A stretch of 55,906 nucleotides of DNA, from NCBI GenBank assembly GCA_020435415.1, contig JAGQZQ010000011.1, forward strand, positions 1 to 55,906, in the 5' to 3' direction. Source of the DNA: Flavobacteriales bacterium. GTDB taxonomy: Bacteria > Bacteroidota > Bacteroidia > JACJYZ01. Position 1 is the stretch's first letter; every line of letters begins with the position of its first letter. The notes beneath the pieces are model-generated. The model was not told the origin of the DNA and searched no databases. It saw only the letters and a program-made list of their open reading frames with translations. This document shows positions 25,230 to 27,501 of this stretch, piece after piece. Both the position numbers and the translations under genes were made by a program.

Positions 25230-25654
25230 GATTTTGCTGTTTCAGTGTTTTTGCTTTCTGTCAGGAAGCCCATTTGGGCAGCGCGGATGCGGTTGTCTTT
25301 GGCTTTTTTCTTGCCGCGGAAAAACAGGAAGAGATTAAAGAACAACATCAGTCCGAGGTAAATGGAGAACCCGCCGATCTTTGAACTGAGTGCTTCCATG
25401 ACCTCCTGTTTTGAGATATCAGGGTTGCCGTAATCATAGATTTCCATGATCAGAAGGGCGAAGCCAAGGTTTAATAAATAAAATCCGACTTCCAGCAGGC
25501 GGTTGGTCGACTGGGCGATTTCTTCGCGTCCGTTGAATATGTCCATCAGAAATATCTTTCCATTCTTAAAAAGGGTTTTGGATACCACCAATGTGAGCAG
25601 CAATACAATGGGCAAGTAGATCATGTAGCCGTAGAAGATGAGTTCGTTTTTCAT
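25226..25654 (-). CDS. Small polytopic membrane protein, paralogue of its upstream neighbour
   Basis: A 142-residue protein with three clear hydrophobic segments (around residues 7-27, 60-77 and 97-117) and a basic cytoplasmic tail with GKKKAKD. It aligns by eye with the protein at 25651: YLP near the N-terminus, FF/LF-K-N-G, then D-x-F, then N-R/K-LL-x-x-G-F/Y-YLLNLG-A and a final hydrophobic helix. I do not recognise the family. It sits in an operon between its paralogue and the TIGR01777 gene, with four-base overlaps on both sides. Confidence 0.8.
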   Translation of the reverse strand: MKNELIFYGYMIYLPIVLLLTLVVSKTLFKNGKIFLMDIFNGREEIAQSTNRLLEVGFYLLNLGFALLIMEIYDYGNPDISKQEVMEALSSKIGGFSIYLGLMLFFNLFLFFRGKKKAKDNRIRAAQMGFLTESKNTETAKS

Positions 25655-26037
25655 GACGTTTGATTTTTGGTTTGTGTATGGTTTGAGAAGCCTGATTTCT
25701 TATTCCGTCTTGCACTGATCCAGGCAATGACCAGCAGGTTTTGATAATGTAGCAGGGATAATATCATTAGGATGGTGCCGAGTTTGTGCGCGATGACTTC
25801 CACCAGGTTTTGCCAGGAGGTCACTTCTTCCCATCCGGTCAGTGTGATTGTTGCATAGCCCAGATTCAAAAGGTAGTAGCCGGTCAGAAGTAGTTTGTTG
25901 ACGGCCTGTGCGGTACCAGGATCGTCAGGGAACATGTCTGTAATATAGGTCGCTCCGTTCCGGAAGAACAGCCACCCTACCCTTACGGTAATGAGATAGG
26001 TAAAGGGTAAATAGATGATATAAGCGATCATATTCAT
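25651..26037 (-). CDS. Small polytopic membrane protein, first of a tandem pair
   Basis: A 128-residue protein with three hydrophobic segments and the same FFRNG...NKLLLTGYYLLNLGYA core as the next gene, so the pair arose by tandem duplication. Overlap of the two is four bases. The start codon follows the -7 element TATATTTG (minus strand, 26042-26049) after only four bases, so the transcript is likely leaderless or nearly so. No function is known; the pair may form a heteromeric membrane complex. Confidence 0.8.
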   Translation of the reverse strand: MNMIAYIIYLPFTYLITVRVGWLFFRNGATYITDMFPDDPGTAQAVNKLLLTGYYLLNLGYATITLTGWEEVTSWQNLVEVIAHKLGTILMILSLLHYQNLLVIAWISARRNKKSGFSNHTQTKNQTS

Positions 26038-26041
26038 GGAT

Positions 26042-26049
26042 CAAATATA
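26042..26049 (-). promoter_or_regulatory. -7 promoter element TATATTTG for the membrane-pair operon
   Basis: Exact TAxxTTTG on the minus strand, ending four bases before the ATG at 26037, which predicts a leaderless or near-leaderless mRNA. Confidence 0.6.
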
Positions 26050-26093: not shown

Positions 26094-26125
26094 TTGAAAA
26101 GGCATGGATCAATTTCCTACATTTG
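26094..26125 (+). promoter_or_regulatory. Promoter of the MFS leader: TTG and TACATTTG
   Basis: TTG at 26094-26096 and TACATTTG at 26118-26125 are separated by 21 bases, close to the Bacteroidota -33/-7 arrangement. It predicts a transcript starting near 26130-26133, about 160 bases upstream of the MFS gene. Confidence 0.65.
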
Positions 26126-26129
26126 CACC

Positions 26130-26290
26130 ATGCAATACAATCCGGTACATAACAGGACTGAAATTTCACAGCTATGGGCGACCAAGCAATGTGTGAAGTA
26201 TGTCCTGAATCCGGGTGAACCATTATGAAACTGATAACTGAATTTCGATCATAGATAAGCCCGGACCATTTGGATCCGGGCTTTTTTTTG
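26130..26290 (+). ncRNA. Structured leader with intrinsic terminator ahead of the MFS gene (candidate attenuator or riboswitch)
   Basis: Nested helices can be drawn by eye: P1 ATCCGG/CCGGGT (26140-26145 with 26211-26216), P2 CAGGAC/GTCCTG (26153-26158 with 26202-26207), P3 ATTTCACA/TGTGAAGT (26163-26170 with 26192-26199) and a tip GCT-A-TGG-GCGA-CCA-AGC (26171-26187) with a GNRA loop. Downstream lies an intrinsic terminator GCCCGGA/TCCGGGC (26259-26265 with 26275-26281) followed by eight T. The 3' strand of P1 (TCCGGG, 26210-26215) can also pair with the terminator's 5' arm (CCCGGA), so P1 and the anti-terminator exclude each other. The leader also encodes two tiny overlapping ORFs (26130-26228 and 26225-26254). 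It matches no riboswitch or small RNA class that I can recognise. Confidence 0.5.
26259..26289 (+). terminator. Intrinsic terminator immediately before the MFS start codon
   Basis: A 7-bp GC-rich helix GCCCGGA/TCCGGGC, with inner CC/GG pairs possible, followed by T8 at 26282-26289. It ends three bases before the ATG at 26293, so the MFS gene can be expressed from the upstream promoter only by read-through. Confidence 0.9.
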
Positions 26291-26292
26291 TC

Positions 26293-27501
26293 ATGGTAGC
26301 AAAAGCTTATCATATGTATATTTCCTCCTTCCGCGGCCTTCGCCGGGAGGTGTGGTTCCTTGCGCTGGTGACCCTTATCAATCGTGCGGGTACCATGGTT
26401 GTGCCATTCTTGTCCCTATATCTGACGGAGGACCTGGGTTACTCCCTGGATGCTGCCGGATGGGTGCTGACTGCCTTTGGCTGTGGCTCCACCCTGGGTG
26501 CATGGATCGGAGGCAAACTTACAGACCGCTGGGGCTTCTACCCGGTGATCCTGTGGAGCTTTTTGTTGTCGGGGGTATTGTTTATCCTCTTGCAGTTCAT
26601 GGATAGCATCGCACTGCTTTCCGCAGGCGTGTTTGTGCTCATGAGTGTAGCAGACACCTCCCGCCCTGCCCTCTTCGTGGCATTGAATGCATACAGTAAA
26701 CCGGAAAACAAAACGCGGAACGTGACGCTGATCCGTTTGGCGATCAACCTGGGTTTTTCTATGGGGCCCGCCATGGGTGGATTGATCATTACAACCATCG
26801 GTTATTCCGGACTTTTCTGGATTGACGGATTGACATGTCTTGGCGCCGGCTTGCTCTTTCTTGCCGTTCTGGATAAACGTAAGACAAAATCCGTGAGCCA
26901 CGTGACGGAGATGACCGAAATTTCACCGTATCGCGACCGGACGTTCCTGTTGTTCATAGGTGCATCGTTCCTGGTCAGCTTTGCCTTCCTTCAGTATTTC
27001 TCGACCATCCCGCTGTACTACCGGGAAGCACATCATATGTCTGAAGATAACATCGGTTTGCTGCTTGCCATGAACGGGATAGTAATCTTTCTTCTGGAAA
27101 TGCCGCTGGTGAAATTTTTCGATAGCCCTGGATTTTCCTCTATTCGGATTCTGGTGGTAAGCACCCTGATGATTGGTGCCAGCTTTTTTGTTCTGAATAT
27201 GAGCAGCGCATCTCACGTGCTGATCACCGGCATGATGTTGATGACTTTCGGTGAAATGCTCAATTTCCCGTTTATGAACCGCTGGGCTATGGACCGTGCT
27301 GCCCGCGGACGTTCCGGGGAATACATGGCCTTGTTCACCATGACCTTCGGTCTGGGGCATATCTTCTGCCATAATGCAGGTATGCATCTGATTGATAGGT
27401 ACGGATTTGATGTGACATGGTATATCATGACCGGTGCGTTGATCTTCGCTGCCTTTTTGTTTGTGGTTTTGAAATGGAGGCTGAAGAATGAAGAAGAGTG
27501 A
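26293..27501 (+). CDS. MFS transporter behind a terminator-containing leader
   Basis: A 402-residue major facilitator protein with about twelve membrane segments. The MFS motif A loop is visible as GGKLTDRWG after the second segment. A second family mark is the NLGFSMGPAMGG of segment 5. It resembles drug- or metabolite-exporting MFS proteins, but the substrate cannot be told. The ATG at 26293 follows the T tract of a terminator by three bases; ATG 26314 is an alternative start that would leave room for a ribosome. Its last codons and downstream bases form a TGAAGAA-type period-7 repeat (27482-27510), so the acidic C-terminus NEEE comes from repeat sequence. Confidence 0.9.
   Translation: MVAKAYHMYISSFRGLRREVWFLALVTLINRAGTMVVPFLSLYLTEDLGYSLDAAGWVLTAFGCGSTLGAWIGGKLTDRWGFYPVILWSFLLSGVLFILLQFMDSIALLSAGVFVLMSVADTSRPALFVALNAYSKPENKTRNVTLIRLAINLGFSMGPAMGGLIITTIGYSGLFWIDGLTCLGAGLLFLAVLDKRKTKSVSHVTEMTEISPYRDRTFLLFIGASFLVSFAFLQYFSTIPLYYREAHHMSEDNIGLLLAMNGIVIFLLEMPLVKFFDSPGFSSIRILVVSTLMIGASFFVLNMSSASHVLITGMMLMTFGEMLNFPFMNRWAMDRAARGRSGEYMALFTMTFGLGHIFCHNAGMHLIDRYGFDVTWYIMTGALIFAAFLFVVLKWRLKNEEE

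Follow-up and report, generated by a model that had tools for sequence, protein, structure and literature searches.

A putative leader-peptide attenuator in front of an MFS exporter gene of a Flavobacteriales bacterium and the shared layout of orthologous loci in Bacteroidota

Introduction

The best-known cases of drug pumps under ribosome-mediated attenuation come from Gram-positive bacteria. The MFS macrolide efflux genes mefA/mefE of Streptococcus are preceded by a short ORF and an intrinsic terminator; the ORF encodes a leader peptide of 8 residues, MefAL, that carries a +x+ arrest motif, and termination is set by the position of the ribosome (PMC10314930). The ABC multidrug exporter bmrCD of Bacillus subtilis answers several ribosome-targeting drugs and is governed by a longer leader ORF, bmrB, of 53 codons, which contains the terminator and allows three alternative stem-loops; a block of bmrB translation lowers expression (PMC4191407). 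Both mefA and bmrCD are attenuated exporters that respond to ribosome-targeting antibiotics (PMC10314930, PMC4191407). The toiL uORF of E. coli senses several classes of such antibiotics via RNA structure, acting on translation and Rho-dependent termination (PMC12121999). The literature that we searched contained no matching description for an MFS pump of Bacteroidota.

Here, we analyse the leader of an MFS gene in a stretch of 55,906 nucleotides from a Flavobacteriales bacterium, termed the window throughout. The original prediction had proposed a new riboswitch or attenuator at this place. Our preferred reading, to which we give a probability of about 0.78, is transcription attenuation by ribosomes on a leader-peptide ORF, which would hold an MFS exporter off during normal translation. 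Like mefA/mefE, the locus combines a short ORF and an intrinsic terminator with an MFS exporter gene downstream, but the window peptide has 32 residues and lacks +x+, and no sequence relation to MefAL is known. It shares with bmrCD the longer leader ORF and the three alternative stem-loops, whereas its terminator lies past the stop codon and not within the ORF, the exporter is not of the ABC type, and the folding model predicts read-through, rather than lowered expression, for untranslated RNA. It resembles toiL in having an upstream ORF with RNA structure, but would act on an intrinsic terminator.

Results

The leader is preceded by a promoter on the forward strand (26094-26125) that is composed of a TTG at the -33 position (26094-26096) and a Bacteroidota -7 box, TACATTTG, at 26118-26125. 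The box of Flavobacterium psychrophilum, TAnnTTTG, extends from -12 to -5 (PMC9723704), which places the predicted +1 of the window promoter at 26130. This base is the A of the ATG of a 32-codon ORF on the forward strand (26130-26228, ATG to TGA, encoding MQYNPVHNRTEISQLWATKQCVKYVLNPGEPL) that is open from the predicted +1 and hence predicted to be leaderless. The ORF surrounds the hairpin described below and had been missed in the original prediction. Between 26126 and the start of the MFS gene, no further exact TANNTTTG was found on the forward strand.

Leaderless starts appear to be over-represented in the genome of this organism at box-to-ATG spacings of 4-6 nt, with 14 cases against about 2 per spacing elsewhere (456 kb of the genome, ORFs of at least 100 codons). 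The string TTTGCACCATG is repeated in the genome, including before smpB and other genes, and at smpB (L002, contig C44) it forms the same fusion of promoter and start as at the window leader. The lone in-genome BLASTN match of the leader, on contig C44, was considered as a second leader copy and rejected, as it consists of the smpB promoter and start codon. A second near-leaderless start is found in the window on the minus strand (26037-26049), where the box TATATTTG (26042-26049) lies 4 bases before an ATG; the divergent ORF of 128 aa behind this box (25651-26037, minus strand) had no Pfam or NCBIfam match.

For the RNA we distinguish region 1 (the head of the ORF), region 2 (its tail with the stop codon), region 3 (the end of the spacer and the 5' arm of the terminator) and region 4 (the 3' arm of the terminator), which can form three mutually exclusive helices. 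The protective hairpin 1:2 (26140-26216) is built from P1 (26140-26145/26211-26216), P2 (26153-26158/26202-26207) and P3 (26163-26170/26192-26199) and is capped by a GCGA tetraloop (26178-26181). P1-P3 is exactly the MFE and centroid structure of 26130-26228 in RNAfold (-29.5 kcal/mol, z -2.3, with 5 of 200 shuffles as stable), while the fold of the whole leader has a z of -3.8 and was matched by none of 200 shuffles. Both strands of the hairpin lie within the ORF, whose ATG sits on the predicted +1, and therefore the element is most likely a leader-peptide attenuator and not a riboswitch.

The intrinsic terminator (26259-26289) has a stem at 26259-26281 with the 5' arm GCCCGGACC, a loop and the 3' arm GGATCCGGGC with one bulged A, followed by T8 at 26282-26289. 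The bulge is the reason why a generic terminator scan missed it; folded alone, it has a z of -4.6, and none of 200 shuffles was as stable. The gap from the stop codon to the terminator is 24 nt, compared to about 28 nt in the leaders generally. The alternative partner of region 3 is region 2 (26210-26228): UCCGGGU (26210-26216) can pair with GCCCGGA (26259-26265), and UUAUGA (26223-26228) with UCAUAG (26249-26254), so that region 3 (26249-26265) belongs either to this anti-terminator or to the terminator. The window 2:3 duplex reaches -16.9 kcal/mol, which by itself is only modestly unusual (shuffle fraction 0.038). The elements named in the original prediction, from the -7 element and P1-P3 with the GNRA-type tip to the terminator and the MFS ATG, are all present within one base, and so is the identity of TCCGGG with the 3' arm of the terminator, although this string, at 26210-26215, is shifted by one base towards the 5' end relative to the paired strand of P1.

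The gene behind the terminator (26293-27501, forward strand) encodes an MFS_1 transporter of 402 aa (PF07690, 4.8e-44); L041 and L121 align with it over their full length, which supports the start at 26293. The protein contains GPxxGG (FSMGPAMGGLI), a motif that it shares with 60 of 87 homologues. This antiporter motif C is typical of exporters. A search by sequence for a solved structure matching the protein returned none.

We propose that the RNA would begin at 26130, on the AUG of the leader ORF, which is presumably translated. A ribosome that finishes the ORF would occupy the tail at 26210-26228, the arms of the terminator could then pair and transcription would end before the MFS gene. 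If the ribosome stalls or slows down within the first two thirds of the ORF, or is absent, the tail would be free to pair with 26249-26265 (UCCGGGU/GCCCGGA and UUAUGA/UCAUAG), and this anti-terminator would let RNA polymerase proceed into the MFS gene and would leave the start of this gene exposed as well.

The genome contigs searched contain 80 relatives of the MFS protein, and in about 38 of them the MFS start is preceded at 14-47 nt by a strong terminator, typically of the form AAAACGTCCCGG-loop-CCGGGACGTTTT. A short ORF lies between the -7 box and the terminator in the 36 leaders analysed, or 40, the window included, when L043 (with a TTG start), L121, L125 and L173 (the Aureibacter tunicatorum plasmid locus) are added. 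These ORFs usually have 22-25 codons, with exactly 24 codons in 24 of the 40 leaders, and in flavobacteria they start about 19 nt past the -7 box. Of the two remaining sense frames in this region, one is interrupted by stops in 35 and the other in 28 of 36 leaders, and an open frame of such length is therefore non-trivial. Thus, about 40 orthologous MFS genes, mostly from Flavobacteriaceae, share a common layout with differing sequences, and in the order of box, short ORF, tail:terminator pairing, terminator and MFS orthologue the window matches the flavobacterial set. Its ORF of 32 codons is longer than the others (17-27), and its peptide is unlike theirs. Beyond Aequorivita-like species the peptides are barely conserved, and on this comparison the presence of the ORF seems to count for more than the peptide sequence.

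Several individual loci deserve mention. At L085 (5790-6001), the ORF, with a stop within few codons, and the terminator both look decayed, as if lost together. On the A. tunicatorum plasmid pAT3 (L173, about 520-680), a 27-codon ORF (MTMNCKHIRRSFYVYQKIVHHDTAMFM) and a terminator precede the Cytophagales MFS gene WP_309942688.1; its tail:terminator match is weak, with a longest run of 3 bases. L044 and L099, relatives that lack the leader, have a TACCTTCG box 4 bases before the MFS ATG, which suggests direct leaderless transcription of the MFS gene in place of attenuation. A role of the +x+ macrolide-arrest motif found no support, since the motif is absent from the window peptide and occurs in 23 of 40 peptides against 21 in shuffles, hence without enrichment.

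Tail and terminator change together between leaders: UCCGGGU/GCCCGGA in the window corresponds to GUCGGACUU/AAGUCCGAC in L084, GUCAGAC/GUCUGAC in L043 and CGGACUU/AAGUCCG in L042, and in L064 CGG.GAUGU.UGUAUUGA pairs with UCAAUAUA...ACGUCCCG in the same order as in the window. Covariation by MAFFT columns was weak within the close flavobacterial set because divergent leaders misalign, and therefore a test of cognate against swapped duplexes was used in its place. Cognate tail:terminator duplexes had a mean of -14.6 kcal/mol compared to -12.1 kcal/mol when swapped, and none of 20,000 permutations was as good, in a test that removes additive effects of composition and, not wholly, those of shared ancestry. 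With 19 clade representatives the values were -13.5 and -10.6 kcal/mol, again with 0 of 20,000 permutations as good. Cognate pairs also came out ahead in a simpler test of the longest perfect run, where 21 of 20,000 permutations did equally well, and the 1:2 pairing likewise passed the cognate-against-swapped comparison. The window tail pairs better with its own terminator side (-16.9) than with that of every other leader.

When the ribosome was set at codon 4 or 8, the RNA still free adopted the 2:3 state for nearly all leaders under equilibrium folding, which can only approximate a kinetic outcome, and untranslated nascent RNA preferred 2:3 in most leaders, including the window. Placing the ribosome on the stop codon hides region 2 and leaves just the terminator, a result that follows from removing the tail in this equilibrium model. 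The comparison of these states speaks for a model with termination after completed translation and read-through when translation fails. The original prediction is supported in that the MFS gene would be attenuated and that the TCCGGG element would underlie the choice between terminator and anti-terminator. Its proposal that P1 formation frees the terminator does not agree with the folding model, where a ribosome at the stop codon has this role.

The genome of the organism contains a further leader of this geometry at pheA (L171, contig C27, reverse strand), where a classic Phe leader, MRKTNYFFFYFYNRSHRGI, is followed by an intrinsic terminator after a stop-to-terminator gap of 31 nt. As in the MFS leader, the tail of the ORF (ACCGGGG) matches the 3' arm of the terminator, and the spacing is similar; the difference is the clear FFFYFY run of the pheA peptide, for which the MFS leader has no counterpart. 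Similar pheA leaders are present elsewhere in the class (L126 and L127), and a 5' element of pheA has been noted before (PMC9723704). From the geometry at L171, the organism appears to use leader-peptide attenuation at pheA, where the purpose of such a mechanism is clear.

A scan of the window leader with Rfam 15 gave no match at the gathering threshold and generic terminators only at relaxed thresholds, in line with the earlier failure to assign a known RNA class; the L064 leader also had no family at gathering score. With BLASTN, 60 relatives gave just short chance or terminator matches to the leader. A covariance model, R1, was built from 26 flavobacterial leaders; its match to the window was end-to-end and ranked first within the 4.5 kb searched, but was not significant (9.1 bits, E 2.4). 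A scan of 395 genomes of the class with R1 turned up pheA leaders and two further MFS leaders in the midst of many matches to AT-rich terminators, and hence R1 is no clean family model. L041 and L098, the nearest MFS relatives of the window on the tree, both lack such a leader; the tree requires seven gains or losses of the leader, and the distribution is patchy. Since the R1 match was not significant and L041 and L098 lack the leader, common descent of the window leader with the flavobacterial leaders is unproven, and it could be retained or independently evolved.

Discussion

The locus has a short ORF between promoter and terminator, mutually exclusive terminator and anti-terminator, and a layout that is conserved before orthologues, as is characteristic of ribosome-mediated attenuators. 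What the MFS leader lacks is the codon run for a regulating amino acid that is found in attenuators of amino acid biosynthesis of the trp and pheA type. An attenuator in which amino acid starvation stalls the ribosome and switches on an amino acid transporter would have the geometry of the pheA leader in this and other Bacteroidota, and the middle part of the peptides is somewhat rich in Thr, Gln, Val and Ser. However, none of the MFS leader peptides contains an amino acid run, any 10 positions of the window peptide include the same residue at most twice (in the pheA leader, Phe/Tyr fill 7 of 10), and the MFS protein bears an exporter motif, so we consider this reading unlikely. The stable three-helix hairpin with its GNRA tip and the overlap of terminator and anti-terminator would also suit a riboswitch, with P1-P3 as an aptamer for the substrate of the transporter. 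Besides the negative Rfam search, it speaks against this that orthologues differ in the sequence, loops and internal bulges of the hairpin, where an aptamer core would be conserved, while the ORF length is near-constant, and that a ribosome would melt the hairpin. A ligand-binding aptamer is thus quite improbable, and of the two options in the original prediction the attenuator is favoured, with the ribosome on the short ORF as the most likely sensor.

It had also been suggested that the leader is a separate small RNA, and 26130-26289 would indeed make a stable RNA of 160 nt with its own promoter, terminator and ORF. Such an RNA, or a small-protein gene, unrelated to the MFS gene would not explain why leader, terminator and MFS gene co-occur with near-constant spacing in about 40 genomes, the peptide is not conserved, the tail:terminator co-variation would have no role in a free RNA, and the MFS gene has no other exact -7 box. 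We therefore regard it as highly improbable, and the conservation of the layout with changed sequence before about 40 orthologues argues for a leader-peptide attenuator of the MFS gene.

The MFS leader peptides have no amino acid runs and the protein has the exporter motif, and hence ribosome-blocking drugs or translation stress are likely signals. By analogy with mefA and bmrCD, ribosome-targeting antibiotics, or general translation stress, would be the most likely signal for the window MFS gene.

While the kind of mechanism is already known, this set of Bacteroidota exporter genes is uncatalogued. The layout occurs in about 40 genomes, including those of cultured Aequorivita, Winogradskyella and Aureibacter strains, and a hidden inducible exporter would therefore be directly testable in laboratory strains, with the covarying tail/terminator pairs as ready predictions for compensatory mutants. 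Tentatively, and with somewhat less than even confidence, these leaders may constitute a widespread, unrecorded attenuator family of Bacteroidota in which the peptide sequence is nearly irrelevant, and where a short 5'-proximal ORF, leaderless in the genome studied here, would serve as a general sensor of ribosome function that switches on a DHA1-like exporter when elongation or initiation fails.
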